From: Pegea sp. RAD2-039
Lineage: Eukaryota; Chordata; Thaliacea; Salpida; Salpidae
Length of the DNA stretch: 64,000 nucleotides
Direction of reading: 5' to 3'
Assembly (NCBI GenBank): GCA_034620365.1
Contig: JAQGEQ010000345.1
Span: 1 to 64,000 of the forward strand
Shown here: piece by piece, positions 13,133 through 64,000 of the stretch
Numbering within the stretch: the first letter of the stretch is position 1
How the letters are laid out: each line of letters starts with the position of its first letter
The notes under the pieces: model-generated
The model's database searches: none
What the model was told of the DNA's origin: nothing
The model's input: only the letters and a program-made list of their open reading frames with translations
Translations under genes and position numbers: made by a program

Positions 13133-13141
13133 TGCGACAAA

Positions 13142-23724: not shown

Positions 23725-23810
23725 AAAATACAACTATTTATCATTTTGGTAGATTTATTCAGATGATGAAAACAACTCTTAGTAAACATTAAAAGGAACG
23801 TTTCAATCAT

Positions 23811-34825: not shown

Positions 34826-34829
34826 AAGA

Positions 34830-35035: not shown

Positions 35036-35069
35036 TTGACAAAATAACTCACAAGTTGGCCTCAACACT

Positions 35070-38000
35070 TCAAGTATTTAGGTAATCATTGCAGCTCTTC
35101 CCATTCATTGTCTTCCTGAATGTTTCTTGGATGACCTCTTCTAAAATATGCTCAAATAATCTCATCAGCTCTTAAAATGTCAAGGCTTACTACCTACACA
35201 TTTTGAACAAACTACTATCTCTAATTCTTCTGCACCTTCACACCATCAGCTAGCCCAAAACTGTTGCTTGTTCCGATGGGCATTTTCCAGTGACACTGAT
35301 TGCTTAAAAGCTTCTTCCAATGTTAAAGTTTCAAGCTGGAACAACCTTTGCATAAAATTTTTGAGATTTATATATCTGTAAAAGAATCCCTGATCATACC
35401 ATTCCTGTGTTTGCTGCTGAGGCGGTTTTATGATCACAGTTCTTGGCCAGACGTACCAAAGTTCATCGAACGCCTCTAAAAGATTGACTCCACTATCAAA
35501 TATGCATGCGAATAACCATTCATCTCATTGGTGTTCGAAGTATTAAATGAAATCTAATTTAAAATCTCATTAAAAATCAAATTATTCAACCTGTTAAAAC
35601 CAACCAATAAAATCCAAGAAGTCATTCTCTCTCAATTAGAGTCTGTAAGCTGCTCCGCTTCCTGATGCTTCAACAATCTTCTAACAGCATCTACTCCTGC
35701 CAGTACTTTCTAAATAGTAGACAGATTCCAATTCTGGCTGTGAGATTTCATCTCATTTAACAAAAACCTTAAAAACCTGAGAAGTCAAATGGTTAGTTAC
35801 CTGAAGGATTAAGGTGATTCCGCTTCATAACATTTGTGATTCAATTGAAGATCCATTCACCAGAAAAAAATCATCTCAAGTGACTGAAAAGTTAACTTTA
35901 CTACTAACAAAGCTCTGAAAATATCAGGTATCTGAAAGACTTAAATAGCTTGCCTGCAGTAGAGATATCCACCAGCACAGTTCAAAATCCTGGAAAACTG
36001 AGTAAGCTCCCGTACTTCATGTCTTTATGTAATCTTTGCAACTCTATCCATTCTTTTCCTTCCTGACATTTTATTTAGAGACCTCTTCGGAAGATGAGAG
36101 CCTCGACTTTACTGTCTCCTTTCCCTAGATTCTACAAAATATTAAATCAAAATTAGCATCTTCTACAATTGTGAGATTTGCTATCTCTTTAATTTGAAAA
36201 AAAAAATACTTTGATGGCTGCTATTATGGATTCTGCTTTGTTCTCAACATCATGTTCCATTGAGTTAACTGCTTCATCTACATCATTTCAAGCTTGAACA
36301 ACCTTTGAATAAGATTTATGAAAAAATACATCTGTAAAAGAATCCCTGATCATACCATTCATGTGTTTTGCTGCTAAGGTGGTCTTCTGATCACAGTTCT
36401 TGGCCAGACGTACCAAAGTTCATCGAACGCCTCTAAAAGATTGACTCCACTATCAAATATGCATGCGAATAACCATTCATCTCATTGGTGTTCGAGGTAA
36501 TAAATGAAATCTAATATGGAATCTCATTAATAATCAAAGTATACAACCTGTTAAAACCAACCAATAATATCCAAGAAGTCATTCTCTCTCAATTAGAGTC
36601 TGTAAGCTGCTCTGCTTCCTGAAGCTTCAACAATCTTCTAACAGCATCTACTCCTGCCAGTACTTTCTAAATAGTAGATAGATTCAAATTCAGGCCATGA
36701 GATTTCATCTTATTTAACAAAAACCTTAAAAATCTGAGAAGTCAAATGGTTAGTTACCTGAAGGATTAAGTTAATTCCGCTTCATAACATTTTTGATTCA
36801 ATTGAAGATCCATTCACCCAAGAAATATCATCTCAAGAACTGAAAATTTAATTTTACTACTAACAAAGCTGTGAAAATATCAGTTATCTGAAAGACATAA
36901 ATAGCTTATCTGTAGTGAGATAACCACCAGCACAGTTCAAAATCCTGGAAAACTGAGTAAGCTCCCGTACTTCATGTCTTTATGTAATCATTGCAACTCT
37001 ATCCATTCTTTACCTCCTGACAGTTTATTTAGAGACCTCTTCGGAAGATGAGAGCCTCACTTTACTGTCTGCTTTCCCTAGATTCTACAAAATATTAAAT
37101 CAAAATTAGCATCTTCTACAATTGTGAGATTTGCTATCTCTTTAATTTGAAAAAAAAAAATACTTTGATGGCTGCTATTGTGGATTCTGCTTTGTTCTCA
37201 ACATGATGTTCCATTGAGTTAACTGCTTCATCTACATCATTTCAAGCTTGAACAACCTTTGAATAAAATTTATGAAAAAATACATCTGTAAAATAATCCC
37301 TGATCATACCATTCATGTGTTTTGCTGCTGAGGCGGTTTTATGATCACAGTTCTTGGCCAGACGTACCAAAGTTCATCGAACGCCTCTAAAAGATTGACT
37401 CCATTATCAAATATGCATGCGAATAACCATTCATCTCATTGGTGTTCGTGGCATTAAATGAAATCTAATTTGAAATCTCATTAAAAATCATAGTACCCAA
37501 CCTGTTACAACCAACCAATAAAATCCAAGAAGTCATTCTCTCTCAGATGGAGTCTGCAAGCCGCTCTGCTTCCTGATGCTTCAACAATCTTCTAACAGCA
37601 TCTACTCCTGCCAGTACTTTCTAAATAGTAGACAGATTCCAATTCTGGCTGTGAAATTTCATCTTATTTAACAAAAACCTTAAAAATCTGAGAAGTCAAA
37701 TGGTTAGTTACCTGAAGGATTAAGGTAATTCCGCTTCATAACATTTGTGATTCAATTGAAGATCCATTCACCCAAGAAATATCATCTCAAGAACTGAAAA
37801 GTTAACCTTACTACTAACAAATCTCTGAAAATATCAGTTATCTGAAAGACTTAAATAGCTAGCCTGCAGTGAGATAACCACCAGCACAGTTCAAACTCCT
37901 GGAAAACTGAGTAAGCTCCCGTACTTCATGTCTTTATGTAATCATTGCAACTCTATCCATTCTTTCCCTCCTGACAGTTTATTTAGAGACCTCTTCGGAA

Positions 38001-41000
38001 GATGAGAGCCTCGACTTTACTGTCTCCTTTCCCTAGATTCTACAAAATATTAAATCAAAATTAGCATCTTCTACAATTGTGAGATTTGCTATCTCTTTTA
38101 TTTGAAAAAAAATACTTTCATGGCTGCTATTATGGATTCTGCTTTGTTCTCAACATGATGTTCCATTGAGTTAACTGCTTCATCTACATCATTTCAAGCT
38201 TGAACAACCTTTGAATAAGATTTATGAAAAAATACATCTGTAAAAGAATCCCTGATCATACCATTCATGTGTTTTGCTGCTAAGGTGGTCTTCTGATCAC
38301 AGTTCTTAGCCAGACGTACCAAAGTTCATCGAACGCCTCTAAAAGATTGACTCCACTATCAAATATGCATGCAAAAACCATTCATCTCATTGGTGTTCGA
38401 GGTAATAAATGAAATCTAATATGGAATCTCATTAATAATCAAAGTATACAACCTGTTAAAACCAACCAATAAAATCCAAGAAGTCATTCTCTCTCAATTA
38501 GAGTCTGTAAGCTGCTCCGCTTCCTGATGCTTCAACAATCTTCTAAAGGCATCTACTCCTGCCAGTACTTTCTAAATAGTAGACAGATTCAAATTCAAGC
38601 CATGAAATTTCATCTTATTTAACAAAAACCTTAACAACCTGAGAAGTCAAATGGTTAGTTACCTGAAAGATTAAGGTAATTCCGCTTCATAACATTTTTG
38701 ATTCAATTGAAGATCCATTCACCAGAAAAAAATTATCTCAAGTGACTGAAATGTTAACTTTACTACTAACAAAGCTCTGAAAATATCAGTTATCTGAAAG
38801 ACTTAAATAGATTGCCTGCAGTAGAGATATCCACCAGCACAGTTCAAAATCCTGGATAGCTGAGTAAGCTCCCGTACTTCATGTCTTTATGTAATCATTG
38901 CAACTCTATCCATTCTTTTCCTTCCTGACAGTTTGTTTAGAGACCTCTTCGGAAGATGAGAGCCTCGACTTTACTGTTTCCTTTCCCTAGATTCTACAAA
39001 ATATTAAATCAAAATTAGCATCTTCTACAATTGTAAGATTTGCTATCTCTTTAATTTGAAAAAAAAATACTTTGATGGTTGCTATTGTGGACTCTATTTT
39101 GTTCTCAACATGATGTTCCATTGAGTTAACTGCTTCATGTACATCATTTCAAGCTTGAACAACCTTTGAATAAGATTTATGAAAAAATACATCTGTAAAA
39201 GAATCCCTGATCATACCATTCATGTGTTTTGCTGCTGAGGCGGTTTTATGATCACAGTTCTTGGCCAGACGTACCAACATTCATCGAACGCCTCTAAAAG
39301 ACTGACTCCACTATCAAATATGCATGCGAATAACCATTCATCTCATTGGTGTTCGAGGTAATAAATGAAATCTAATTTGAAATCTCATTAATAATCAAAG
39401 TATACAACCTGTTAAAATTAACCAATAAAATCCAAGAAGTCATTCTCTCTCACTTAGAGTCTATAAGCTGCTCCGCTTCCTGATGCTTCAACAATCTTCT
39501 AAAGGCTTCTACTCCTGCCAGTACTTCTAATAAGTAGACAAATTCCAATTCTGGCTGTGAAATTTCATCTTATTTAACAAAAACCTTAAAAACCTGAGAA
39601 GTCAAATGGTTAGTTACTTGAAGAATTAAGGTAATTCCGCTTCATAACATTTTTGATTCAATTGAAGATCCATTCACCCAAGAAATATCATCTCAAGTGA
39701 CTGAAAAGTTAACTTTACTACTAACAAAGCTCTCAAAATATCAGTTATCTAAAAGAATTAAATAGCTAGCCTGCAGTGAGATAACCACCAGCACAGTTCA
39801 AAATCCTGGAAAACTGAGTAAGCTCCCGTACTTCATGTCTTTATGTAATCATTGCAACTCTATCCATTCTTTTCCTTCCTGACAGTTTGTTTAGAGACCT
39901 CTTCGGAAGATGAGAGCCTCGACTTTACTGTTTCCTTTCCCTAGATTCTACATAATATTAAATCAAAATTAGCATCTTCTACAATTGTGAGATTTGCTAT
40001 CTCTTTAATTTGAAAAAAAAATACTTTGATGGCTGCTATTGTGGATTCTGCTTTGTTCTCAACATGATGTTCCATTGAGTTAACTGCTTCATCTACATCA
40101 TTTCAAGCTTGAACAACCTTTGAATAAAATTTATGAAAAAATACATCTGTAAAAGAATCCCTGATCATACCATTCATGTGTTTTGCTGCTGAGGCGGTTT
40201 TATGATCACAGTTCTTGGCCAGACGTACCAAAGTTCATCGAACGCCTCTAAAAGATTGACTCCACTATCAAATATGCATGCGAATAACCATTCATCTCAT
40301 TGGTGTTCGAGGTAATAAATGAAATCTAATATGGAATCTCATTAATAATCAAAGTATACAACCTGTTAAAACCAACCATTAAAATCCAAGAAGTCATTCT
40401 CTCTCTATTAGAGTCTGTAAGCTGATCCGCTTCCTGATGCTTCAACAATCTTCTAACAGCATCTACTCCTGCCAGTACTTTCTAAATAGTAGACAGATTC
40501 CAATTCTGGCTGTGAAATTTCATCTTATTTAACAAAAACCTTAAAAATCTGAGAAGTCAAATGGTTAGTTACCTGAAGGATTAAGGTAATTCCGCTTCAT
40601 AACATTTGTGATTCAATTGAAGATCCATTCACCAGAAAAAAATCATCTCAAGTGACTGAAAAGTTACATTTACTACTAACAAAGCTCTGAAAATATCCAG
40701 TATCTGAAAGACTTAAATAGTTTGCCTGCAGTGAGATAACCACCAGCACAGTTCAAAATCCTGGAAAACTGAGTAAGCTCCCGTACTTCATGTCTTTATG
40801 TAATCATTGCAACTCTATCCATTCTTTACCTCCTGACAGTTTCTTTGAAGACGTTTTGGGAAGATGACAGCTGCGACTTTAGTCTCTCTTCTCCCTAGAT
40901 TCTACAAAATATTAAATCCAATTTATCATCTTTTACAATTGTGAGATTTGCTATCTCTTTAATTTGAAAAAAAAAATACTTTGATGGCTGCTATTGTGGA

Positions 41001-44000
41001 TTCTGCTTTGTTCTCAACATGATGTTCCATTGAGTTAACTGCTTCATCTACATCATTTCAAGCTTGAACAACCTTTGAATAAGATTTATGAAAAAATACA
41101 TCTGTAAAAGAATCCCTGATCATACCATTCATGTGTTTTGCTGCTGAGGCGGTCTTCTGATCACAGTTCTTGGCCAGACGTACCAAAGTTCATCGAACGC
41201 CTCTAAAAGATTGACTCCACTATCAAATATGCATGCGAATAACCATTCATCTCATGGGTGTTCGAGGTAATAAATGAAATCTAATATGGAATCTCATTAA
41301 TAATCAAAGTATACAACCTGTTAAAACCAACCAATAAAATCCAAGAAGTCATTCTCTCTCAATTAGAGTCTATAAGCTGCTCTGCTTCCTGATGATTCAA
41401 CAATCATCTAACAGCATTTACTCCTGCCAGTACTTTCCAAATAGTAGATTGATTCCAATTCTGGCCATGAAATTTCATCTTATTTAACAAAAACCTTAAA
41501 AACCTGAGAAGTCAAATGGTTAGTTACCTGAAGGATTAAGGTAATTCCGCTTCATAACATTTGTGATTCAATTGAAGATCCATTCATCCAAGAAATATCA
41601 TCTCAAGTGACTGAAAAGTTAATTTTACTACTAACAAAGCTGTGAAAATATCAGGTATCTGAAAGACTTAAATAGCTTGCCTGCAGTGAGATATCCACCA
41701 GCACAGTTCAAAATCCTGGAAAACTGAGTAAGCTCCCGTACTTCATGTCTTTATGTAATCATTGCAACTCTATCCATTGTTTACCTCTTGACAGTTTCTT
41801 TGAAGACGTTTTGGGAAGATGAGAGCCGCTACTTTAGTGTCTCTTTTCCTAGATTCTACAAAATATTAAATCCAAATTATCATCTTTTACAATTGTGAGA
41901 TTTGCAATCTCTTTAATTTGAAAAAAAAATACTTTGATGGCTGCTATTGTGGATTCTGCTTTGTTCTCAACATGATGTTCCATTGAGTTAACTGCTTCAT
42001 CTACATCATTTCAAGCTTGAACAACCTTTGAATAAGATTTATGAAAAAATACATCTGTAAAGAATCCCTGATCATACCATTCATGTGTTTTGCTGCTGAG
42101 GCGGTTTTATGATCACAGTTCTTGGCCAGACGTACCAAAGTTCATCGAACGCCTCTAAAAGATTGACTCCACTATCAAATATGCATGCGAATAACCATTC
42201 ATCTCATTGGTGTTCGAGGTAATAAATGAAATCTAATATGGAATCTCATTAATAATCAAAGTATACAACCTGTTAAAACCAACCAATAAAATCCAAGAAG
42301 TCATTCTCTCTCAATTAGAGTCTGTAAGCTGCTCTGCTTCCTGATGATTCAACAATCATCTAACAGCATTTACTCCTGCCAGTACTTTCCAAATAGTAGA
42401 TTGATTCCAATTCTGGCCATGAAATTTCATCTTATTTAACAAAAACCTTAAAAACCTGAGGAGTCAAATGGTTAGTTACCTGAAAGATTAAGGTAATTCC
42501 GCTTCATAACATTTGTGATTCAATTGAAGATCCATTCACCAGAAAAAAATCATCTCAAGTGACTGAAAAGTTACTTTTACTACTAACAAAGCTCTGAAAA
42601 TATCAGGTATCTGAAAGACTTAAATAGCTTGCCTGCAGTGAGATAACCACCAGCACAGTTCAAACTCATGGAAAACTGAGTAAGCTCCCGTACTTCATGT
42701 CTTTATGTAATCATTGCAACTCTATCCATTCTTTACCTCCTGACAGTTTCTTTGAAGACGTTTTGGGAAGATGACAGCCGCGACTTTAGTGTCTCTTTTC
42801 CCTAGATTCTACAAAATATTAAATCCAAATTATCATCTTTTACAATTGTGAGATTTGCTATCTCTTTAATTTGAAAAAAAAAATACTTTGATGGCTGCTA
42901 TTGTGGATTCTGCTTTGTTCTCAACATGATGTTCCATTGAGTTAACTGCTTCATCTACATCATTTCAAGCTTGAACAACCTTTGAATAAAATTTATGAAA
43001 AATACATCTGTAAAAGAATCCCTGATCATACCATTCATGTGTTTTGCTGCTGAGGCGGTTTTATGATCACAGTTCTTGGCCAGACGTACCAAAGTTCATC
43101 GAACGCCTCTAAAAGATTGACTCCACTATCAAATATGCATGCGAATAACCATTCATCTCATGGGTGTTCGAGGTAATAAATGAAATCTAATATGGAATCT
43201 CATTAATAATCAAAGTATACAACCTGTTAAAACCAACCAATAAAATCCAAGAAGTCATTCTCTCTCAATTAGAGTCTGTAAGCTGCTCTGCTTCCTGATG
43301 ATTCAACAATCATCTAACAGCATTTACTCCTGCCAGTACTTTCCAAATAGTAGATTGATTCCAATTCTGGCCATGAAATTTCATCTTATTTAACAAAAAC
43401 CTTAAAAACCTGAGGAGTCAAATGGTTAGTTACCTGAAAGATTAAGGTAATTCCGCTTCATAACATTTGTGATTCAATTGAAGATCCATTCACCAGAAAA
43501 AAATCATCTCAAGTGACTGAAAAGTTACTTTTACTACTAACAAAGCTCTGAAAATATCAGGTATCTGAAAGACTTAAATAGCTTGCCTGCAGTGAGATAA
43601 CCACCAGCACAGTTCAAACTCATGGAAAACTGAGTAAGCTCCCGTACTTCATGTCTTTATGTAATCATTGCAACTCTATCCATTCTTTACCTCCTGACAG
43701 TTTCTTTGAAGACGTTTTGGGAAGATGACAGCCGCGACTTTAGTGTCTCTTTTCCCTAGATTCTACAAAATATTAAATCCAAATTATCATCTTTTACAAT
43801 TGTGAGATTTGCTATCTCTTTAATTTGAAAAAAAAATACTTTGATGGCTGCTATTGTGGATTCTGCTTTGTTCTCAACATGATGTTCCATTGAGTTAACT
43901 GCTTCATCTACATCATTTCAAGCTTGAACAACCTTTGAATAAGATTTATGAAAAAATACATCTGTAAAAGAATCCCTGATCATACCATTCATGTGTTTTG

Positions 44001-46182
44001 CTGCTGAGGCGGTTTTATGATCACAGTTCTTGGCCAGACGTACCAAAGTTCATCGAACGCCTCTAAAAGATTGACTCCACTATCAAATATGCATGCGAAT
44101 AACCATTCATCTCATGGGTGTTCGAGGTAATAAATGAAATCTAATATGGAATCTCATTAATAATCAAAGTATACAACCTGTTAAAACCAACCAATAAAAT
44201 CCAAGAAGTCATTCTCTCTCAATTAGAGTCTGTAAGCTGCTCTGCTTCCTGATGATTCAACAATCATCTAACAGCATTTACTCCTGCCAGTACTTTCCAA
44301 ATAGTAGATTGATTCCAATTCTGGCCATGAAATTTCATCTTATTTAACAAAAACCTTAAAAACCTGAGGAGTCAAATGGTTAGTTACCTGAAAGATTAAG
44401 GTAATTCCGCTTCATAACATTTGTGATTCAATTGAAGATCCATTCACCCAAGAAATATCATCTCAAGAACTGAAAAGTTAACTTTACTACTAACAAAGCT
44501 GTGAAAATATCAGTTATCTGAAAGACATAAATAGCTTGCCTGCAGTAGAGAAATCCACCAGCACAGTTCAAAATCCTGGAAAACTGAGTAAGCTCCCGTA
44601 CTTCATGTCTTTATGTAATCATTGCAGCTCTATCCATTCTTTTCCTTCCTGACAGTTTATTTAGAGACCTCTTCGGAAGATGAGAGCCTCGACTTTACTG
44701 TTTCCTTTCCCTAGATTATACAAAATATTAAATCAAAATTAGCATCTTCTACAATTGTGAGATTTGCTATCTCTTTAATTTGAAAAAAAAATACTTTGAT
44801 GGCTGCTATTATGGATTCTGCTTTGTTCTCAACATGATGTTCCATTGAGTTAGCTGCTTCATCTACATCATTTCAAGCTTGAACAACCTTTGAAAAAGAT
44901 TTATGAAAAAATACATCTGTAAAAGAATCCCTGATCATACCATTCATGTGTTTTGCTGCTGAGGCGGTTTTATGATCACAGTTCTTGGCCAGACGTACCA
45001 AAGTTCATCGAATGCCTCTAAAAGATTGACTCCACTATCAAATATGCATGCAAATAACCATTCATCTCATTGGTGTTCGAGGTATTAAATGAAATCTAAT
45101 TTGAAATCTCATTAAAAATCAAATTATTCAACCTGTTAAAACCAACCAATTAAATCCAAGAATTCATTCTCTCTCAATTAAAGTCTTTAAGCTGCTCCGC
45201 TTCCTGATGCTTCAACAATCTTCTAAAGGCATCTACTCCTGCCAGTACTTTTTAAATAGTAGACAGATTCCAATTCAGGCTGTGAGATTTCATCTTATTT
45301 AACAAAAACCTTAAAAACCTGAGGAGTCAAATGGTTAGTTACCTGAAGGATTAAGGTAATTCCGCTTCATAACATTTGTGATTCAGTGGAAGATCCATTC
45401 ACCAGAAAAAAATCATCTCAAGTGACTAAAAAGTTAACTTTACTACTAACAAAGCTCTGAAAATATCCAGTATCTGAAAGACTTAAATAGCTTGCCTGCA
45501 GTAGAGATATCCACCAGCGCAGTTCAAACTCATGGAAAACTCAGTAAGCTCCCGTACTTCATGTCTTTATGTAATCATTGCAACTCTATCCATTCTTTTC
45601 CTTCCTGACAGTTTGTTTAGAGACCTCTTCGGAAGATGAGAGCCTCGACTTTACTGTTTCCTTTCCCTAGTTTCTACAAAGTATTAAATCAAAATTAGCA
45701 TCTTCTACAATTGTGAGATTTGCTATCTCTTTAATTTGAAAAAAAAATACTTTGATGGTTGCTATTGTGGATTCTGCTTTGTTCTCAACATGATGTTCCA
45801 TTGAGTTAACTGCTTCATCTACATCATTTCAAGCTTGAACAACCTTTGAATAAGATTTATGAAAAAATACATCTGTAAAAGAATCCCTGATCATACCATT
45901 GATGTGTTTTGCTGCTGAGGCGGTTTTATGATCACAGTTCTTGGCCAGACGTACCAAAGTTCATCGAACGCCTCTAAAAGATTGACTCCACTATCAAATA
46001 TGCATGCGAATAACCATTCATCTCATTGGTGTTCGAGGTAATAAATGAAATCTAATATGGAATCTCATTAATAATCAAAGTATACAACCTGTTAAAACCA
46101 ACCAATAAAATCCAAGAAGTCATTCTCTCTCAATTAGAGTCTGTAAGCTGCTCTGCTTCCTGAAGCTTCAACAATCAACAAG
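35070..46182. repeat. Satellite array 1: about 954-bp unit, about 11.6 copies
   Basis: The anchor GTTCTTGGCCAGACGTACC recurs at 35,439, 36,396, 37,350, 38,302, 39,257, 40,211, 41,166, 42,118, 43,072, 44,026, 44,981 and 45,937, spacing 952-957 nt. Units are visibly more GC-rich than the flanks and mostly well above 90% alike. The first unit (35,070-35,430) is strongly diverged to the left of the anchor. The right end stops mid-unit at 46,182. Each unit has an A-tract of variable length (A7-A10) after TTTAATTTG. Confidence 0.95.
35246..35524 (-). pseudogene. Gag-like open frame in the first satellite unit
   Basis: A 92-codon frame is open from 35,524 to a stop at 35,246 (minus strand). Readable parts: FDSGVNLLEAFDELWYVWP, then EWYDQGFFYRYINLK, then LTLEEAFKQSVSLENA. 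The last block resembles the end of Ty3/gypsy-type gag capsid regions, where a FV-x-GL segment is followed by LTLEKALxIAxSLE-like sequence. There is no start codon at the beginning and no zinc knuckle or protease follows. All other units carry one extra A in this frame (GCAGCAAAACACATG instead of GCAGCAAACACAGG), which breaks it. The gag assignment rests on motif resemblance only. Confidence 0.4.
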
Positions 46183-47279
46183 ATTTATCAGAAAAATAAA
46201 ATCTAGAAAACAAAATTATCCAAAGATTTTTTATAAAACAAACTCTTATAGAATTGTTATTTAATTAGTCTATAACAAAATAAAAATTAGTTTAAGGAAC
46301 AAAACCTAAGAGTAAGCAAAAATCTTTTTGAAACAGAATAGCAATGAATGAAATTAAACCTAATTTTGTTATTATCAACTTTAAGAATTTTCAAAGGCAA
46401 GTTTTTAAAAGTTACATTATAATTTTTAAAGTAGTTACATTTCTGAGGTACATGCTTTTAGATATAACACCATGTTTCTAATTAAATTAATTTTTATTTG
46501 CTGTACAAATTCCTTATAAAATTGAAACTTCATTGGAAAAAATCTTTATTATAATTTTATACTTATATAAAAGGAAATTATATGCTAACTAAATTTACAT
46601 TATTAAATAGAAAAAATTATCAAAACTAAAAAAATTCCAAAATAATTAGATATTATTTAGTACGTTTACTAATAAGTATACTTAATTTGCAATTGAATTT
46701 TAATTAAAGTTTAATACCTTGAAATAATAAAATGAAACTTGTCATAAATTAAACAAACATTTTAAGAAGCTGTAAAAACAAGTAATAAAAATGGCTTTCA
46801 ACTATTACGTATTATGATTTTCCGAAACTTAGTTCACAATTTTTTGATATTTTTTATTTTTTTTACTTTAATTTCTGTACTTTAGGAGTATTTTACACCA
46901 AACGTGAATCAAAATGTAATATTTGATCTTTTGAATTACAATTAGCTTTTGAAACAATTCATAACTAAAACATGAAAATGAAGTTGAATTTTTTAACATT
47001 TTGTTGTGCAGTAAAAACTAATTATAATTTTGAAGAACAAAAAACAAAGTTAGATTTCTGATTTAAAAATTTAAAGTGAATAAATTATGTTTAGTATGTA
47101 TTAAGTTACCTTAAGCAAAACTCTGTGTTAATAAAAATATCCATTAATTGTAATAGCTGTATATAAATTCAAGTCTTTTAAGTAAAAGCACTGAAAATGA
47201 AACTATAAAAGCATTTTTACTTTGGTTATTTACAAAAGTAAGTAATAAGTACTTAATCTCATTCGACCTTTTCTTTCAA

Positions 47280-48125
47280 TACAATTGAAATTAAAGTGAG
47301 CAAAATTGATTATCCTTCAAATTCCTCGAATCAATACTCCATCAATGGATTTATTATTTAACGATTATCTTCGGTCCTAGACCTTGGCATTAATCTAACA
47401 TCTGACTTTAAATGGCGCAATAATGTTTTCAACATCTTTCGAAAATCAATCAACCTTGTCTTCCTTATTACAAAGACCTTTAATTCTAATAACAATGTTA
47501 GTGCATGAATGCCATATGAAATTCGTGATATAGAAAAAATTGAGTCTGTTCAGGCAACATTTACGAAATTGGTATCCAGGAAACTTAATATTAAATATAA
47601 TAGTTACAAACATCGTCTCAGTTTCTTCAATTTAGATGCTTTGAAAACTCGACAGAGTAAATAAGACTTAATTTTTTGATTATCCACAATTTGATTAACC
47701 TTCAGTTTGATGATTTCTTTTTCATTAATCCTTCTTTCAAGTTATATCAGCTCAGACGACACACATTTCATCTTAATGACCCTATATAACCTTGCATATT
47801 AATCAAAGCAAAATTTTTCACTATCGCAAAATTAGTATATGGAACCAGCTACCATCAGACTTTGTCATAATCACTGGCATTGTTCAAGCAGAAGTTGAAC
47901 CGTTATAACATTGCCAACACATACATTTCTAAACAGTGAATTTTTCTCTTCTTTGCAATTATTCACTGTTATATACTTTGAGTGGTACCGAAATGCCATG
48001 TGTTACTTTCTTTGCTTTCTATATTTTTGAATAATAAGATGTCACTTGTGAGAATGTGTGTTAGCGCGAGGTGCTTTCTTCATGCACCCTTCTTCGCTTT
48101 TATTGTAACAAATAAATGAATTATT
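47280..48125 (+). mobile_element. Non-LTR retrotransposon, C-terminal ORF and 3' UTR
   Basis: Readable blocks are those following the reverse transcriptase domain in jockey/CR1-type elements: DLGINLTSDFKWRNNV, FRKSINLVFLITKTFNS, then after a stop MPYEIRDIEKIESVQ, LVSRKLNIKY, KHRLSFFNLDALKTR. A degraded WNQLPSDFV-like end sits near 47,840-47,865. The 3' UTR ends with the GAGGTGC/GCACCC hairpin (48,068-48,089) and an AATAAATGAA tail. The reading frame has several stops, so the element is dead. Confidence 0.75.
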
Positions 48126-48194
48126 TTAAAGGAGCAACATCAAAAAGCATATAAAGATAAACGTTAGCTGCAAATGTTACCTTATTTTAACTAG

Positions 48195-51404: not shown

Positions 51405-54400
51405 AATTCCTACTAACAAAGATCTGCAAAGTTCAGTATCTAAAAGACTTAAATAGCTTGCTTGCAGTACAGATATCCACCAGCGCAGTTCAAACTCCTG
51501 GATAACTGAGTAAGCTCCAGTACTTCATGTCTCTAGGTAGACATTGCAACTCTTTCCATTCTTTTCTTTCCTGACAGTTTCTGTAGAGACCTCTTCGGGA
51601 GATGACAGCTTCGACTTTAGTGTCTCTTCTCGCTAGATTTAAAAATTGACAAAATTTAAATCAGCATCTTCTACAATTGTGAGATTTACTACCTCTTTAA
51701 TTTGAAAAAAAAATACTTTCATGGCTGCTATTGTGGATTCTGCTTTGTTCTCAATATGATGTTCCATTGAGTTAACTGCTTCATGTACAACATTTCAAGC
51801 TGAAAAACCTTTGCACAAAATCAATAAAATTATACATCTGTAAAAGAATCCCTGATCATACCATTCATGTGTTTTGCTGCTGAGGTGGTTTTATGATCAC
51901 AGATCTTGGTCAGAATGTACCAAAGTTAATCGAACGCCTCTAAAAGATTGACTCCACTATCAAATATGCATGCGTGCATCAAATATCATTGGTGTTCGAG
52001 GTATTAAATGAAATCTAATGTGAAATCTCATTAAAAATCAAATTATTCAACCTGTTAAAACCAACCAATTAAATCCAAGAATTCATTCTCTCTCAATTAG
52101 AGTCTTTAAGCTGCTCCGCTTCCTGATGCTTCAACAATCTTCTAAAGGCATCTACTCCTGCCAGTACTTTTTAATTAGTAGACAGATTCCAATTCAGGCT
52201 GTGAGATTTCATCTTATTTAACAAAAACCTTAAAAACCTGAGAAATCAAATGGTTAGTTACCTGAAGGATTAAGGTAATTCCGCTTCATAACATTTTTGA
52301 TTCAATTGAAGATCCATTCACCCAAGAAATATCATCTCAAGAACTGAAAAGTTAACTTTACTACTAACAAAGCTCTGAAAATATCAGGTATCTGAAAGAC
52401 ATAAATAGCTTGCCTGCAGTGAGATAACCACCAGCACAGTTCAAAATCCTTGAAAACTGAGTAAGCTCCCGTACTTCATGTCTTTATGTAATCATTGCAA
52501 CTCTATCCATTCTTTTCCTTCCTGACAGTTTGTTTAGAGACCTCTTCGGAAGATGAGAGCCTGGACTTTACTGTCTCCTTTCCCTAGATTCTACAAAATA
52601 TTAATTCAAAATTAGCATCTTCTACAATTGTGAGATTTGCTATCTCTTTAATTTGAAAAAAAAGTACTTTCATGGCTGCTATTGTGGATTCCGCTTTGTT
52701 CTCAACATGATGTTCCATTGAGTTAACTGCTTCATCTACATCATTTCAAGCTTGAACAACCTTTGAATAAAATTTATGAAAAAATACATCTGTAAAAGAA
52801 TCCCTGATCATACCATTCATGTGTTTTGTTGCTGAGGCGGTTTTATGATCACAGTTCTTGGCCAGACGTACCAAAGTTCATCGAACGCCTCTAAAAGATT
52901 GACTCCACTATCAAATATGCATGCCAATAACCATTCATCTCATGGGTGTTCGAGGTAATAAATGAAATCTAATATGGAATCTCATTAATAATCGAAGTAT
53001 ACAACCTGTTAAAACCAACCAATAAAATCCAAGAAGACATTCTCTCTCAATTAGAGTCTGTAAGCTGCTCTGCTACCTGAAGCTTCAACAATCTTCTAAA
53101 GGCATCTACTCCTGCCAGTACTTTCTAAATAGTAGATAGATTCAAATTCAGGCCATGAGATTTCATCTTATTTAACAAAAACCTTAAAAACCTGAGAAGT
53201 CAAATGGTTAGTTACCTGAAGGATTAAGGTAATTCCGCTTCATAACATTTGTGATTCAATTGAAGATCCATTCTCCAGTAAAAAATCATCTCAAGAACTG
53301 AAAAGTTAACTTTACTACTAACAAAGCTCTGAAAATATCAGGTATCTGAAAGACATAAATAGCTTGCCTGCAGTGAGATAACCACCAGCACAGTTCAAAA
53401 TCCTGGAAAACTGAGTAAGCTCCCGTACTTCATGTCTTTATGTAATCTTTGCAACTCTATCCATTCTTTTCCTTCCTGACAGTTTGTTTAGAGACCTCTT
53501 CGGAAGATGAGAGCCTCGACTTTACTGTCTCCTTTCCCTAGATTCTACATAATATTAAATCAAAATTATCATCTTTTACAATTGTGAGATTTGCAATCTC
53601 TTTAATTTGAAAAAAAAATACTTTGATGGCTGCTATTGTGGATTCTGCTTTGTTCTCAACATGATGTTCCATTGAGTTAACTGCTTCATCTACATCATTT
53701 CAAGCTTGAACAACCTTTGAATAAGATTTATGAAAAAATACATCTGTAAAAGAATCCCTGATCATACCATTCATGTGTTTTGCTGCTAAGGTGGTCTTCT
53801 GATCACAGTTCTTGGCCAGACGTACCAAAGTTCATCGAACGCCTCTAAAAGATTGACTCCACTATCAAATATGCATGCGAATAACCATTCATCTCATTGG
53901 TGTTCGAGGTAATAAATGAAATCTATTATGGAATCTCATTAATAATCAAGGTATACAACTTGTTAAAACCAACCAATAAAATCCAAGAAGTCATTCTCTC
54001 TCAATTAGAGTCTGTAAGCTGCTCCGCTTCCTGATGCTTCAACAATCTTCTAACAGCATCTACTCCTGCCAGTACTTTCTAAATAGTAGACAGATTCAAA
54101 TTCAAGCCATGAAATTTCATCTTATTTAACAAAAACCTTAAAAACCTGAGAAGTCAAATGGTTAGCTACCTGAAAGATTAAGGTAATTCCGCTTCATAAC
54201 ATTTTTGATTCAATTGAAGATCCATTCACCAGAAAAAAATTATCTCAAGTGACTGAAAAGTTAACTTTACTACTAACAAAGCTCTGAAAATATCAGTTAT
54301 CTGAAAGACTTAAATAGATTGCCTGCAGTAGAGATATCAACCAGCACAGTTCATAATCCTGGATAGCTGAGTAAGCTCCCGTACTTCATGTCTTTATGTA

Positions 54401-57122
54401 ATCATTGCAACTCTATCCATTCTTTTCCTTCCTGACAGTTTGTTTAGAGACCTCTTCGGAAGATGAGAGCCTCGACTTTACTGTTTCCTTTCCCTAGATT
54501 CTACATAATATTAAATCAAAATTAGCATCTTCTACAATTGTGAGATTTGCTATCTCTTTAATTTGAAAACAAAATACTTTGATGGCTGCTATTATGGATT
54601 CTGCTTTGTTCTCAACATGATGTTCCATTGAGTTAACTGCTTCATCTACATCATTTCAAGCTTGAACAACCTTTGAATAAGATTTATGAAAAAATACATC
54701 TGTAAAAGAATCCCTGATCATACCATTCATGTGTTTTGCTGCTGAGGCGGTTTTATGATCACAGTTCTTGGCCAGACGTACCAAAGTTCATCGAACGCCT
54801 CTAAAAGATTGACTCCACTATCAAATATGCATGCGAATAACCATTCATCTCATTGGTGTTCGTGGCATTAAATGAAATCTAATTTGAAATCTCATTAAAA
54901 ATCATAGTACCCAACCTGTTACAACCAACCAATAAAATCCAAGAAGTCATTCTCTCTCAATTAGAGTCTGTAAACTGCTCCGCTTCCTGATGCTTCAACA
55001 ATCTTCTAAAGGCTTCTACTCCTGCCAGTACTTTCTAATAAGTAGACAGATTCCAATTCAGGCCATGAGATTTCATCTTATTTAACAAAAACCTTAAAAA
55101 TCTGAGAAGTCAAATGGTTAGTTACCTGAAGGATTAAGGTAATTCCGCTTCATAACATTTGTGATTCAATTGAAGATCCATTCTCCAGAAAAAAATCATC
55201 TCAAGTGACTGAAAAGTTACTTTTACTACTAACAAAGCTCTGAAAATATCCAGTATCTGAAAGACTTAAATAGCTTGCCTGCAGTGAGATAACCACCAGC
55301 ACAGTTCAAAATCCTGGAAAACTGAGTAAGCTCCCGTACTTCATGTCTTTATGTAATCTTTGCAACTCTATCCATTCTTTTCCTTCCTGACAGTTTATTT
55401 AGAGACCTCTTTGGAAGATGAGAGCCTCGACTTTACTGTCTCCTTTCCCTAGATTCTACAAAATATTAAATCCAAATTAGCATCTTCTACAATTGTGAGA
55501 TTTGCTATCTCTTTAATTTGAAAAAAAAATACTTTGATGGCTGCTATTGTGGATTCTGCTTTGTTCTCAACATGATGTTCCATTGAGTTAACTGCTTCAT
55601 CTACATCATTTCAAGCTTGAACAACCTTTGAATAAGATTTATGAAAAAATACATCTGTAAAAGAATCCCTGATCATACCATTCATGTGTTTTGCTGCTAA
55701 GGTGGTCTTCTGATCACAGTTCTTGGCCAGACGTACCAAAGTTCATCGAACGCCTCTAAAAGATTGACTCCACTATCAAATATGCATGCGAATAACCATT
55801 CATCTCATTGGTGTTCGAGGTAATAAATGAAATCTAATATGGAATCTCATTAATAATCAAAGTATACAACCTGTTAAAACCAACCAATAAAATCCAAGAA
55901 GTCATTCTCTCTCAATTAGAGTCTGTAAGCTGCTCCGCTTCCTGATGCTTCAACAATCTTCTAACAGCATCTACTCCTGCCAGTACTTTCTAAATAGTAG
56001 ACAGATTCCAATTCTGGCTGTGAAATTTCATCTCATTTAACAAAAACCTTAAAAACCTGAGAAGTCAAATGGTTAGTTACCTGAAGGATTAAGGTAATTC
56101 CGCTTCATAACATTTGTGATTCAATTGAAGATCCATTCACCCAAGAAATATCATCTCAAGAACTGAAAAGTTAACTTTACTACTAACAAAGCTCTGAAAA
56201 TATCAGTTATCTGAAAGACTTAAATAGCTAGCCTGCAGTGAGATAACCACCAGCACAGTTCAAAATCCTGGAAAACTGAGTAAGCTCCCGTACTTCATGT
56301 CTTTATGTAATCATTGCAACTCTATCCATTCTTTACCTCCTGACAGTTTCTTTGAAGACGTTTTGGGAAGATGAGAGCCGCGACTTTAGTGTCTCTTTCC
56401 CTAGATTCTACAAAATATTAAATCCAAAATTATCATCTTTTACAATTGTGAGATTTGCAATCTCTTTAATTTGAAAAAAAATACTTTGATGGCTGCTATT
56501 GTGGATTCTGCTTTGTTCTCAACATGATGTTCCATTGAGTTAACTGCTTCATCTACATCATTTCAAGCTTGAACAACCTTTGAATAAGATTTATGAAAAA
56601 ATACATCTGTAAAAGAATCCCTGATCATACCATTCATGTGTTTTGCTGCTGAGGCGGTTTTATCATCACAGTTCTTGGCCAGACGTACCAAAGTTCATCG
56701 AACGCCTCTAAAAGATTGACTCCACTATCAAATATGCATGCGAATAACCATTCATCTCATTGGTGTTCGTGGCATTAAATGAAATCTAATTTGAAATCTC
56801 ATTAAAAATCATAGTACCAACCTGTTACAACCAACCAATAAAATCCAAGAAGTCATTCTCTCTCAATTAGAGTCTGTAAGCTGCTCCGCTTCCTGATGCT
56901 TCAACAATCTTCTAACAGCATCTACTCCTGCCAGTACTTTCTAAATAGTAGACAGATTCAAATTCTGGCCATGAAATTTCATCTTATTTAACAAAAACCT
57001 TAAAAACCTGAGAAGTCAAATGGTTAGTTACCTGAAAGATTAAGGTAATTCCGCTTCATAATATTTGTGATGCAATTGAAGATCCATTCACCCAAGAAAT
57101 ATCATCTCAAGAACTGAAAAGT
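51405..57122. repeat. Satellite array 2: six units of about 954 bp
   Basis: Anchors lie at 51,902 (diverged), 52,854, 53,808, 54,764, 55,719 and 56,671. The first unit carries flank-specific changes (TAGGTAGACATTGC, CTGTAGAGACCTCTTCGGGAG) shared with the first unit of array 3, so the left junction is a conserved boundary. The array stops mid-unit at 57,122 within the GAACTGAAAAGTT block, where unique sequence begins. Confidence 0.95.
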
Positions 57123-58203
57123 TGAAAAAAAATTAATATTAATCATTTGACAAAGTGTACTTTTAAGATGTTATTTTTGATAATTTAATTATTTGTTAAA
57201 AACCTTTCTACCTGGAATTTTAAAAATATTTTGAAAACTTATTCAATCGGTATAATCTTAATCAAGTTTATATGAAACCAGCAGGAGATAAAAAATAATC
57301 TTTGCTAATTTGTTATTTCTAGCATGAGTTTGCTCAAAACCGTGTCGTCAATGGTACAGCCTCATGAACTATATAACGCTATCAAGTGATAAAAGGTTAG
57401 ACAAAATAGATGAAAATAGTGAGGAAACGAGAAGTGATAGATAACACTTGTTAAATCATTTGTGTTAAAAAAGATTTTAAAGAAGCAGTTAAAAAGATGT
57501 GTTATACTTTGATATAAAGATGGAAGGAAATTTCGATTTTTGCCAGTTGGTGTTTCTAAAGTTATTTAGTAATTTTAAAGGAATAGTTTCTGTGAGCATA
57601 AAGGAGATTGCAATCTAAAAACTACTAATTGAAATTAAAATGGCAAACACTATTGATAATTTCTTATGCAACGTCAACAAAGAGGATGTTGATATTACAA
57701 GGATTTTATATTTTTCTTGGAGACGGTCTGTGTATGATAAAAATGGTATCAAGTATCTAAGAAAAGATTCCCTATTATCAAAGACGAAAGCAACTAAGCT
57801 TGTCTTTAATAAACAGGTTTTGAGAAATGTGATATAAAAAAGTTCAATTTATACTTCATGCAACCCTTAGAAACCTTAAAGGAAATTTGTTTACAAATTA
57901 GAGATTAGAATAATTGGACAACTAGAAGCCAAAGTAGTACAAGGCAATTTATCTTTGAATATGAAAATAAAGGGAAACGTTTCTTCACACAAGAAGTTTA
58001 AGATTTACAAAAATAGAAAAATCTATGAAAGTCAAACACAGATGTCAACTTATATCAACAATCACAAGAAAACCTTCCTAAAATGAAATTCTAAAAATAA
58101 TTTAAAACATATTCAAACTAATACAATCTTAATGAAACTTATATCAAAGAAGAAGACAAAATAAGAGGTCAAGAAAACAAGAATTATTTGTAGCTAATTA
58201 AAA
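57123..58203. other. Unique segment between array 2 and the second 12-kb copy
   Basis: Absent from the equivalent junction at 46,182/46,183. It holds a decayed coding region (57,520-58,086). No terminal inverted repeats or target-site duplication could be identified at its edges. Confidence 0.6.
57520..58086 (+). pseudogene. Single-frame decayed coding region, product unknown
   Basis: Three open stretches lie in the same reading frame: ATG 57,520 to TAA 57,618 (32 codons), ATG 57,640 to TAA 57,837 (65 codons, MANTIDNFLCNVNKEDVD...), and 57,880 to TGA 58,086 (68 codons, KLEIRIIGQLEAKVVQGN...). They are separated by 7 and 14 codons that hold the only stops. Frame coherence over about 570 nt suggests one former gene of about 190 codons. 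The composition is rich in Lys, Asn, Ile and Leu; no signal peptide or known motif is visible. An intron joining the last two parts was tried but none kept the frame. Confidence 0.35.
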
Positions 58204-59314
58204 ATTTATCAGAAAAATAAAATCTAGAAAACAAAATTATCCAAAGATTTTTTATAAAACAAACTCTTATAGAATTGTTATTTAAATAGTCTATAACAAA
58301 ATAAAAATTAGTTTAAGGAACAAAACCTAAGAGTAAGCAAAAATCTTTTTGAAACAGAATAGCAATGAATGAAATTAAACCTAATTTTGTTATTATCAAC
58401 TTTAAGAATTTTCAAAAGCAAGTTTTTCAAAGTTATATTATAATTTTTAAAGTAGTTACATTTCTGAGGTACATGCTTTTAGATATAACACCATGTTTCT
58501 AATTAAATCAATTTTTATTTGCTGTACAAATTCCTTATAAAATTGAAACTTCATTGGAAAAAATCTTTATTATAATTTTATACTTATATAAAAGGAAGTT
58601 ATATGCTAACTAAATTTACATTATTGATTAGAAAAAATTATCAAAACTAAAAAAATTCCAAAATAATTAGATATTATTTAGTACGTTTACTAATAAGTAT
58701 ACTTAATTTGCAATTGAATTTTAATTAAAGTTTAATACCTTGAAATAATAAAATGAAACTTGTCATAAATTAAACAAACATTTTAAGAAGCTGTAAAAAC
58801 AAGTAATAAAAATGGCTTTCAACTATTATGTATTTTGATTTTTCGAAACTTAGTTCACAATGAATATTTTTTGATATTTTTAAATTTTTTTACTTTAATT
58901 TCTGTACTTTAGGAGTATTTTACACCAAACGTGAATCAAAATGTAATATTTGATCTTTTGAATTACAATTAGCTTTTGAAACAATTCATAACTAAAACAT
59001 GAAAATGAAGTTGAATTTTTTAACATTTTGTTGTGCAGTAAAAACTAATTATAATTTTGAAGAACAAAAAACAAAGTTAGATTTCTGATTTAAAAATTTA
59101 AAGTGAATAAATTATGTTTAGTATGTATTAAGTTACCTTAAGCAAAACTCTGTGTTAATAAAAATATCCATTAATTGTAATAGCTGTATATAAATTCAAG
59201 TCTTTTAAGTAAAAGCACTGAAAATGAAACTATAAAAGCATTTTTACTTTGGTTATTTACAAAAGTAAGTAATAAGTACTTAATCTCATTCGACCTTTTC
59301 TTTCAATACACTTC

Positions 59315-60155
59315 AATTGAAATTAAAGTGAGCAAAATTGATTATCCTTCAAATTCCTCGAATCAATACTCCATCAATGGATTTATTATTTAACGATTAT
59401 CTTCGGTCCTAGACCTTGGCATTAATCTATCATCTGACTTTAAATGGCGCAATAATGTTTTCAACATCTTTCGAAAATCAATCAACCTTGTCTTCCTTAT
59501 TACAAAGACCTTTAATTCTAATAACAATGTTAGTGCATGAATGCCATATGAAATTCGTGATATAGAAAAAATTGAGTCTGTTCAGGCAACATTTACGAAA
59601 TTGGTATCCAGGAAACTTAATATTAAATATAATAATTATAAACATCGTCTCAGTTTCTTCAATTTAGATGCTTTGAAAACTCGACAGAGTAAATAAGACT
59701 TAATTTTTTGATTATCCACAATTTGATTGACCTTCAGTTTGATGATTTCTTTTTCATTAATCCTTCTTTCAAGTTATATCAGCTCAGACGACACACATTT
59801 CATCTTAATGACCCTATATAACCTTGCATATTAATCAAAGCAAAATTTTTCACTATCGCAAAATTAGTATATGGAACCAGCTACCATCAGACTTTGTCAT
59901 AATCACTGGCATTGTTCAAGCAGAAGTTGAACCGTTATAACATTGCCAACACATACATTTCTAAACAGTGAATTTTTCTCTTCTTTGTAATTATTCACTG
60001 TTATATACTTTGAGGGGTACCGAAATGCCATGTGTTACTTTCTTTGCTTTCTATATTTTTGAATAATAAGATGTCACTTGTGAGAATGTGTGTTAGCGCG
60101 AGGTGCTTTCTTCATGCACCCTTCTTCGCTTTTATTGTAACAAATAAATGAATTA
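59315..60155 (+). mobile_element. Non-LTR retrotransposon fragment, second 12-kb copy
   Basis: The same insertion as 47,280-48,125, carried along by the large duplication, with the same stops, 3' hairpin and tail. It is not an independent insertion. Confidence 0.75.
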
Positions 60156-60229
60156 TTTTAAAGGAGCAACATCAAAAAGCATATAAAGATAAACGTTAGC
60201 TGCAAATGTTACCTTATTTTAACTAGATA

Positions 60230-60600
60230 TATTTGTTTGAACTGCTTCACTCGACAACGACCTTCCATACATGATAAAGCAAAAATTATAAAGATCTAAT
60301 AGTTGGCCATGAAGCAAGATTACACTTTTTAAGTCATCAAAGTTGATCAAAGCAGATAAATTGATACAGGCACGCTCGAACGACGCTCGAACGACTACAA
60401 AACCAGCAAAAATGACTTCAAGTAGAAAAACATTATGCCTACCAGGTTCTAACTATGAGTTTATATTTCGAGTAAAGGGTCTTTTATAGGTGGTTCACTA
60501 CCAAGAAAGCAGAATAATTATAGCTGAAGTTTAAAAGCTCTTTATTGCTTGGAAATGCGTCCACCTTGCCCTTACACTGATCATTTTTGAATCACATTAA
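60230..60600 (-). mobile_element. Decayed SINE, second 12-kb copy
   Basis: Duplicate of the element at 48,195-48,560, differing by a few substitutions (for example CACGCTCGAACG instead of CACGCACGAACG). Confidence 0.45.
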
Positions 60601-62012
60601 AAAGCTAAGAAAATAAAAAGAATTATCATTTTTTTCAAAACTAAAATTTTTCTACAATTCTAAGCTTCCTATAAACTAAAAATGTTTAAATTAAGTTTTA
60701 TGTTTAGAGTAAAAACTTGTAATGGTTAAAATTATTGTAGTGTAAATGAAACGAAACGTGACATAAATAGCGGTTTTTCAAAAAAAAATCATGCTTTATT
60801 ATTTTATTATTTTAGTAGTGCTCTAAAATGGAAAATTGAAATATGATATTAAAAGCTGTAAATCTTGTTTATCAATCAAAAATTAAATAAAAAACTTTAC
60901 ATCATTTCATATTTCAGATAGATAGAACGATTTTGATATACTTTGTTTTTGTATAAACTTCATTAAAGTATAAAATTAAGTTTTATTTATCTTGTTCTGA
61001 ATATTTTACGAGTTTCTGCTAAGACCATCAAAATTCTCTTATGTGGAAAAATTTGAAATCTGTTGACGTCATTGCAAGATGAGTGAGAATTACAATCAAA
61101 CAGCAAATCAAAACAGCTCACTGCGCCACCACTTGCTATTTTTAAAATAAAAGCAAAAATCAAGTCTGTGAAATATATACGAACGGAGTTGGTATTCCCT
61201 GATTCAAAAATTTCTCATTTTTCTAATAATTTTTATCATAAATACTTTGAAAGAAATCAGTTCATCAAGCATCGTTGACAAAAAAAATTGAGTAATGAAA
61301 TAACAATTTTATAGAAAATAGAAATAACTTTGAAACAACCATAATAAAGATAAGTGATAACTCTAATAACCTCTATCAAATATACAAAACTTAAAAAAAA
61401 AAGATTCAAAACACCTAACTTTGCAATAATTTTACGTACTGTTAACTTTTTAGTTGTTTTAAGAGATTTAAGAATAAACTATCTATTGCATTGTCAAAAA
61501 GATCAAAACTTATTATTAATATCCTTAAAAACAATTTCTTTTTATCAATGTAAATTATAGAACCAGAATAAAATAATAATTATAACCTGAACAATTTTTG
61601 TCAAAAAGTTTCATTTTAAGTAATTCTGAATAACTAGTACATAATTTAAAATACTTATTCTATAGAAAAATCTTACATAGTTTTTTTAGATTAACCCCTA
61701 AACATAATTTATCTTATAAACATATTCTCAAACTAAAAAACTTTCTTTTATGGTAATCTAAAGAAATAAATACGTAAATGTATTTGCAACAATAATAATT
61801 TAATAATATTGATTTAAATTTATTAAAAGTATGTAAGATTATAAACTAGAGACAAATTAGGTGTATTTAAGTCGTTTAATTGCTAATCTGAAAGTCTAAC
61901 CAATGATTTCCTTCAAATCCAATTACGTTACCAAGGCTACAGCATAACATGCTATACTACTCCACCTATCGAGCGCAGAAATCGTTTGTGTTTAACTACA
62001 TTTGTTCTACAA

Positions 62013-62275
62013 GTGAACTCTGCTAATTTCTTGTATTTGCTTGTGAAAAAGAAGATTTTATGAAAATATCCAAAAGAAAAATAAACAGTTTATTGACCTT
62101 GATTTCACTGTTCTAGGTCATTTTGGATGTTACTGAACAATGAATCTAATAAACTTCTCTGTAGCTTTACTACTAACGATAATTTAATAAGTAGTAAGAA
62201 AAATAACATAGCTACCATATTGTTTTATTTAGTGTTTAGGCCCACAAAGTTAAACACGAAAAGCTTTGACAAAGC
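62013..62275 (+). repeat. Interspersed repeat R2, copy 3 (duplicate of copy 2)
   Basis: Carried within the 12-kb duplication; nearly identical to 49,979-50,240. Confidence 0.5.
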
Positions 62276-63424
62276 GTTTTGTATAACTAAGTAAATAAAA
62301 AGCGTAGAAAGTCATTAAAGAAATCATGATCTACAACTATTTTGTACTTTCTAAAGATTAATTAATTGGTTAACTTGGGACTATAAGGTAACTAAACCTA
62401 TAATATTGTTTGAAATCAATATTTTAGAGAATTAAACACAAAAATCCGACCAAAACTTTTTAGTTGCTTGGTTATGCTGTTCTACATCTTTAAAAGTAAA
62501 CAACTTTGTAAAACTTGTTTTACAAACTATTTGTTTAAAGTTAACAATCTTTTATAATTTTAATAATTTACCAAAGCATTAATAATTTAAGTTAAATTAA
62601 GAAATTAGTTCAGCATGAGAAACTGTGTTGGTGATTTGACGAAAACCCAGTCTTGTGAAAAGCCTGAATTTTCCCAAGTTTTTAATCTACTTCCTGCTGT
62701 GAATACTTAAAAATATTAATAACAACTCCTAAAAAATTTGGATTGAAAATCAACTTGAGTTGAACTTTAGATTTACTTTAAGATTAATGCAGAGTTTTCA
62801 AACCCCTAAATGTCAACAAGCTAAAGTCTTGAAAGTAAATATAACATTTTACCAGTAGACCTTTCAAACAAAATTTGATGATTTTGTAATCAGTTAATAG
62901 TTACAATTAATTAAGTTTGTTCTGTAGTTTTAAATTCAAAATTCAAAGTTTCCATTCTTGTTGCGTATTAAGTCTGAGACTTAAATAGTTTGTAAACTTA
63001 ATGTGTAACTTCAATAAGTAAATTTCAGTTTGTAGATTTAATGTTTGAGATTTAAATTGTACATTCAGGTTGAAGTGTTAAAATGCAGTTTCACTTTGTA
63101 CAATCAGTTTTCAATAACTACAAATATGTGATGGACTTTTTTTTAAAAATACTAAATATTTTTGTTTACTTTTTATTTTGTTTATCTTTTAACACAAGGA
63201 TGCATACAACAAATCATAGAGCTCTTAAAGCAAACACAAATAAATATATTTACAAAATATAATACAGATCTAAAACAATAAAATTTAGAACAAGTACTGT
63301 TAGTCTCTTCATTCTACATCGAGCTCTTTCATGACAAACAGAAACTTAAAATTAGAAGCAACTTAAAAAGATGGGCCATTATCACATTGAATGGATGTGT
63401 TATCTTGTGAACTTTAAAGTTTCG

Positions 63425-64000
63425 AGAAACTTCCTACTAACAAAGATCTGCAAAGTTCAGTATCTAAAAGACATAAATAGCTTGCTTGCAGTACAGATAT
63501 CCACCAGCGCAGTTCAAACTCCTGGATAACTGAGTAAGCTCCAGTACTTCATGTCTTTAGGTAGACATTGCAACTCTTTCCATTCTTTTCTTTCCTGACA
63601 GTTTCTGTAGAGACCTCTTCGGGAGATGACAGCTTCGACTTTAGTGTCTCTTCTCGCTAGATTTAAAAAATTGACAAAATTTAAATCAGCATCTTCTACA
63701 ATTGTGAGATTTGCTACCTCTTTAATTTGAAAAAAAAAAAATACTTTCATGGCTGCTATTGTGGATTCTGCTTTGTTCTCAACATGATGTTCCATTGAGT
63801 TAACTGCTTCATCTACATCATTTCAAGCTTGAACAACCTTTGAATAAGATTTATGAAAAAATACATCTGTAAAAGAATCCCTGATCATACCATTCATGTG
63901 TTTTGCTGCTGAGGCGGTTTTCTGATCACAGTTCTTGGCCAGACGTACCAAAGTTCATCGAACGCCTCTAAAAGATTGACTCCACTATCAAATATGCATG
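63425..64000. repeat. Satellite array 3, first unit, cut by the window edge
   Basis: The anchor lies at 63,931, and the first-unit variant is the same as at 51,405-52,000. A 93-codon minus-strand frame (63,514-63,795) is open here because this unit lacks stops found in others. It contains the MEHHVENKAEST block, which lies in the same region of the unit as the SVSLENAHRNK block of the gag-like frame. Confidence 0.95.

Follow-up and report, generated by a model that had tools for sequence, protein, structure and literature searches.

How a broken piece of a retroelement comes to be repeated tens of times at one place in an animal genome is the question raised by the beginning of contig C257 (686,837 bp) of the 105.7-Mb, 387-contig Pegea sp. 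assembly. The analysed stretch, called the window hereafter, comprises bases 1-64,000 of this contig and is AT-rich, with a GC content of 22-35% in 2-kb steps. A first reading made from the sequence alone had proposed a gag-bearing satellite occupying 35,070-64,000 and descended from a single damaged retroelement piece.

Organization of the repeat units

The recurrence of a unit of about 954 bp at least 19 times, as first described, was confirmed: units of ~955 bp lie head to tail, and of the 30 present on the contig the window contains 19 (A0-A11, B1-B6 and the part of C1 that falls inside it). All 30 share the same orientation, with the coding sense on the minus strand, and complete units measure about 951-957 bp. 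The region from 35,070 to 64,000 is not one array, though. Units make up 17.4 of its 28.9 kb, in three blocks of 12, 6 and 1 (35,067-46,176, 51,407-57,123 and 63,431-64,000), the remainder being spacers of 5.2 and 6.3 kb. Along C257 the 30 units span ~52 kb in five arrays, A to E, separated by spacers, and arrays B, C and D contain 6, 2 and 8 complete units with matching spacer junctions. The array is absent from the TRF output for the window, in which the longest period is 500. The layout is as follows (the last three entries in contig coordinates):

35,067-46,176, minus strand: units A0-A11 (12 units)
35,067-35,893, minus strand: outermost left unit A0, which keeps a gag segment deleted in 28 units and shows gag similarity in three frames
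35,894-46,176, minus strand: array A, units A1-A10 and truncated A11, from unit register and alignment
46,177-51,406, no strand: spacer S1, without ~1.07 kb at the array-A side
51,407-57,123, minus strand: array B, six complete units B1-B6, from junctions and unit register
57,124-63,430, no strand: spacer S2, 6.3 kb, 99.54-99.62% identical to S3 and S4, both beyond the window
63,431-64,000, minus strand: unit C1, incomplete at the window end; array C extends to contig base 65,336
63,431-65,336, minus strand: array C, two complete units C1-C2
71,650-79,279, minus strand, beyond the window: array D, eight complete units D1-D8
85,595-87,438, minus strand, beyond the window: array E, units E1-E2

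Elsewhere in the window, exons of a CCN-type secreted protein lie on the minus strand at 12,864-14,351, with Pfam matches that pass the cut-off for IGFBP and TSP1_CCN and a weak, sub-threshold one to DAN; a gene of this type points to an animal. A 2.4-kb direct duplication with 81% identity (23,433-25,843 and 30,790-33,186) has its second copy ending ~1.6 kb to the left of the array's outer flank; two of its frames scanned (25,026-25,235 and 32,274-32,615) matched no Pfam family. No known RNA was found in the window at gathering thresholds.

A gag-protease fragment joined to locus-specific DNA

Each unit consists of ~404 bp of locus-specific DNA and ~550 bp of gag-to-protease homology, as in the following examples, which include a probable protease remnant at an array end:

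38,756-39,306, minus strand: unit A4, C-terminal part of gag to the protease start, from unit register and homology to dispersed copies
39,307-39,710, minus strand: unit A4, 404-bp locus-specific part
63,338-63,430, minus strand: probable protease remnant running from array C into spacer S2 (tblastn)

As a query against the 105.7-Mb assembly the 404-bp part gave 30 matches, all on C257 between 35,489 and 87,383. This bears on whether the array could be one stretch of a satellite that occurs at centromeres or in heterochromatin throughout the genome, the term satellite having implied a genome-wide repeat. In being tandem, homogenised and retroelement-related it is like several plant centromeric repeats, as these are described in the cited accounts (PMC9659126, PMC3648361), but confinement of every match to 52 kb of one contig makes such a satellite very unlikely, with the qualification that assemblies can lose satellites. 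In the strict sense, which demands high copy number or long arrays, the term does not fit 30 copies at one locus of the assembled sequence.

The ~550-bp part, by contrast with the 404-bp part, has relatives elsewhere in the same genome, and it is through them that the unit was found to carry a retroelement gag fragment, as the sequence-only reading had claimed. Nucleotide identity to dispersed loci is ~61-76% (17 loci), and many of the matches begin at one shared position of the unit. At the protein level, tblastn matches between the array and the family reach E 1.9e-15 for unit E1 and 7e-9 for A0 among the matches listed, and the protease region of a dispersed copy matches 63,592 to 63,338 with 33% identity over 92 aa (E 7e-6). 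With a 162-aa gag piece of locus L028 as query there were at least 151 matches in the genome including the query itself, most with internal stops (scoring covered the best 150 of 337 candidates; some matches are two pieces of a single copy).

When ten single pieces of dispersed copies were compared with Pfam, everything fell below the curated cut-offs. The matches were gag-asp_proteas on L027 (E 8e-5, 23.6 bits against a cut-off of 28.2) and on L012 (E 0.062, sub-threshold), zf-CCHC on L030 (E 8.5e-4, 19.7 bits against 20.8), and, on a decayed copy at L035, RT_RNaseH (E 5.9e-4, 20.4 bits against 24.8) and RT_RNaseH_2 (E 9.2e-4, sub-threshold). Two pieces (L034 and L035:7625-7981) matched unrelated families alone, weakly, and four of the ten (L029, L035:8397-8729, L028 and L032) gave nothing. 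The translated dispersed loci run through what we take to be gag, then a zinc-knuckle stretch and then a protease-like stretch, the knuckle being visible for instance in L014. Taken together, the sub-threshold profile matches and the motifs point to an LTR-retroelement gag-protease fragment as the retroelement part of the unit, and the parent family is likely Ty3/gypsy-like.

An RNase H query, which was a decayed 92-aa piece, gave ten genome matches including itself, against at least 151 for gag. Most gag copies may possibly lack pol, i.e. belong to a gag-rich, pol-poor non-autonomous family, or else the query may be poorly sensitive. Genomic context was read at 24 fetched loci. In 13 of 21 oriented copies, the interval lying 400-600 bp ahead of the anchor also occurs in six or more others, and sharing declines downstream. 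Some gag matches form same-strand pairs ~5.5-6.7 kb apart, as if duplicated in tandem with their flanks (e.g. C259:470039/476771, C60:283797/289300, C35:787386/793346 and C6:1969298/1974930). Presumably LINE-like frames lie between the two gag matches of L033.

Some known piRNA loci are one-orientation arrays of retroelement sequence, and the units resemble them in this respect. A role as a piRNA source that silences the retroelement family and is selected for copy number is highly improbable, however, given that the longest exact match of a unit to the 24 fetched gag-family loci is 22 nt (14-18 nt for 21 of the 24) and that identity to the dispersed copies is as low as stated above (~61-76%, 17 loci).

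The open frame of the outermost unit

According to the sequence-only reading, a gag-like frame had stayed open in A0, whereas a single shared 1-nt insertion had destroyed it in every other unit. The frame in question is the following:

35,249-35,524, minus strand: 92-aa open frame (P0001), of which only the last third is in the gag frame

A plus-strand reading of the 35,246-35,524 peptide was rejected, as stops interrupt it whereas the frame is open on the minus strand. By tblastn, gag pieces of L028 match A0 at 35,489-35,412, 35,418-35,374 and 35,344-35,249, that is, in three different frames. The 92-aa frame coincides with the gag frame at 35,344-35,249 alone, so about two thirds of the peptide are out of frame with gag. 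The first two gag pieces have a common frame in A1 and A2, which are inner units. Moreover, in an alignment of the 30 units with 22 dispersed family loci, the 1-nt site between these two pieces shows a gap in A0 alone, a base being present in 29 of 29 other units and in 22 of 22 family loci; the 1-nt event therefore took place in A0, and the direction proposed at first is reversed. A shared lesion does exist among the interior units, as had been supposed; it is a deletion of ~90 bp and not a 1-nt insertion (see below).

The length of the frame carries little weight, since a frame of at least 92 aa on one strand occurred in 334 of 2000 first-order Markov sequences modelled on A0. Against Pfam the peptide gave no gag match and PX alone (E 0.035, below cut-off), which was taken as chance, and a PDB sequence search with it gave no gag match either. 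Absence of gag similarity in a profile search had been named as grounds for abandoning the gag assignment; for the peptide itself such absence was indeed found, but the gag identity of the unit stands through its dispersed relatives. The case corrects the notion of an edge unit preserving the gag frame, and in AT-rich decayed DNA frame length by itself misleads.

Could the unit nonetheless represent a domesticated gag gene family? Apart from a few stops, a single frame of C1 runs across a large part of the gag-protease region, and C1 has the longest within-unit frame (102 aa; 63,517-63,822, minus strand). A length of 102 aa was nevertheless reached by 120 of 2000 random unit-like sequences, the knuckle cysteines are lost in the inner units translated, and frames vary among units: the C1 frame is kept at less than half of positions in 8 of 26 other units, the highest share being 0.80. 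Furthermore, diversity at codon positions 1, 2 and 3 among 27 units is 0.056, 0.063 and 0.049, with no excess at the third position and hence no coding constraint seen by this measure, and it is similar in the non-gag (0.062) and gag (0.054) parts (27 units). Domestication is accordingly extremely improbable. No sign of coding or silencing function was seen in these comparisons, and we infer from this that the array is non-coding and effectively neutral.

A shared deletion and a homogenised interior

The junction of a ~90-bp deletion within gag is found in 28 of the 30 units, the undeleted family segment being retained only in A0 and E2, both outermost. The distance from the anchor to the next landmark is 92 bp in A1 and C1, 197 bp in E2, and 182, 185 and 179 bp in family copies L016, L032 and L021, respectively, against which the deletion measures 87-93 bp. 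Together with the homology to the dispersed family, this shared deletion supports the proposal that the array derives from one damaged retroelement piece.

The 28 units other than A0 and E2 are 87.9-99.4% identical. Of these, 24 inner units are 92.5-99.4% alike, and the four first units of blocks are 87.9-93.6% identical to them. Within the window no unit is as diverged as A0 (81-86% to units except E2), as had been stated, but E2 (73-80%), elsewhere on the contig, is more so. The 404-bp part of A0 (35,489-35,893) is homogenised with the array, showing 94% identity to the query unit. A0 and E2 could have survived from an array that was older and larger; in what order the old steps took place is uncertain. 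Units A6-A9 are 97-99% alike, which points to a local recent expansion.

In a unit tree with 14 of its 27 inner branches open and an unsettled bootstrap, the first units of four blocks (B1, C1, D1 and E1) form one clade (100/99) and the last units of three blocks (B6, C2 and D8) another (95/95). Among blocks, first units are 94.8-96.9% identical (3.1-5.2% apart) and last units 96.9-98.1% (1.9-3.1% apart). These edge units are mosaic. That is, out of every 100 columns the first units differ at 0-3 next to the spacer and at as many as 12 deeper in, and D1 passes from edge type to interior type, being near-identical to D2 over part of its length.

Spacers and probable block duplication

Spacers S2-S4 are mutually 99.54-99.65% identical (0.35-0.46% apart), and the arrays between them differ in size. 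S1 is 98.76-98.87% identical to the others (1.1-1.2% apart) and has its own truncated junction. Part of the divergence of S2 falls in the final bin of the alignment, next to the array, which holds 9 of the 24 differences from S3 and 9 of the 29 from S4. Insertion of the spacer as a transposon was rejected, no clean target-site duplication being present at the junctions, and five spacer reading frames scanned matched no Pfam family. Two further features concern the spacers:

34,769-35,043, plus strand: diverged spacer remnant on the outer left flank, in two pieces, 72-77% identical to 61,952-62,053 and 62,120-62,273 and to the equivalent positions of the three other spacers
59,347-60,162, no strand: dispersed repeat inside S2, with ~74-84% matches on many other contigs (a lower bound, 40 of 3026 candidates having been scored)

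When 34,000-35,066 was used as a genome query it matched itself and the four spacers, and nothing else. On the outer right flank, 58 bp at 87,451-87,508 are 81-83% identical to the spacer, a weaker case than the left. With diverged spacer on both outer flanks, an older block layout seems to surround the young one.

Spacers 0.35-0.46% apart lie beside units 1.9-5.2% apart, which requires exchange between non-identical units after block duplication, or else misassembly. Under the latter explanation the block structure, not the unit array, would be partly an assembly artefact, with alternative alleles or mis-expanded repeats placed in tandem; the divergence of S2-S4 is of a level possible for alleles, and array lengths vary between blocks. 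We consider this unlikely, because the first and last units differ among blocks by more than the spacers do, because S1 stands apart in both sequence and junction, and because old, diverged spacer remnants are present on the outer left and, weakly, on the outer right. Such an artefact would moreover be compatible with the rest of the history proposed below. Unless the region is misassembled, then, the pattern points to recent block duplication plus unit exchange. A stronger version is a tentative and rather doubtful reading: a young, still-moving block array, perhaps with a small-RNA role, in which ongoing unit exchange in near-identical blocks would have left the edge units diverged ~4-15 times more than the adjoining S2-S4. 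If true, the ends of exchange tracts would be naturally recorded at this locus of an animal.

Origin of the array and comparison with known systems

The history that very probably explains the locus is that a decayed gag-protease fragment plus ~404 bp was amplified in tandem locally, with later duplication of blocks, as non-coding and effectively neutral DNA. Within a larger block, head-to-tail duplication would have affected a decayed LTR-retroelement gag-protease fragment and ~404 bp of adjacent DNA. A single copy would then have lost ~90 bp of gag, and the deleted version would have spread by unequal exchange, with exchange or conversion keeping units mostly 92-99% alike. Afterwards, blocks of spacer plus units would have been duplicated, unit number and sequence at block edges continuing to change. 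Unequal crossover or conversion is the presumed mechanism, and the order of the steps is likewise a proposal. The locus is a small, readable case of a broken transposon piece becoming a tandem array by what looks like ordinary genome decay and copying; within ~52 kb one can see the old edge units, the deletion at its founding, the duplicated blocks and the mosaic units at their edges.

D4Z4-type macrosatellites are local arrays of tens of kilobase-scale units, to which the present array is similar in unit size, copy number and local distribution; D4Z4 carries a gene, whereas none was found in the units here.

The suggestion that the locus was the window's strongest candidate for something undescribed was not upheld, as satellites derived from retroelements are well documented in the literature, among them the gag-containing repeats of rye and wheat (PMC7004042, PMC9659126, PMC3648361, PMC6947457). 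As far as the cited accounts describe them, rye E3900 and the wheat 250-bp repeats, both related to Ty3/gypsy gag, likewise consist of tandem units containing, or similar to, part of a gag frame (PMC9659126, PMC3648361). They differ in being plant repeats, the wheat one being called centromeric, whereas here 30 units occupy one locus in an animal, and the unit also holds 404 bp that are unique to this locus within the assembly. Maize CRM1TR and CRM4TR are described as retroelement-fragment tandem repeats at one or two loci, locally homogenised and with a variable internal repeat number, as here, but they are LTR/UTR-derived and up to 97% and 95-98% identical to their parents, compared with ~61-76% nucleotide identity for our units (PMC3648361). 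In the Ogre-derived satellites of Lathyrus sativus, too, retroelement sequence has grown into tandem arrays; according to that report these came from pre-existing 3′ UTR tandem repeats of dispersed elements, whereas here one coding fragment was amplified in one place (PMC7004042). With its head-to-tail units, a dispersed homologous element, and a homogenised interior with diverged edges, the array on C257 appears to be a new instance of a retroelement-derived tandem repeat, a kind already published.
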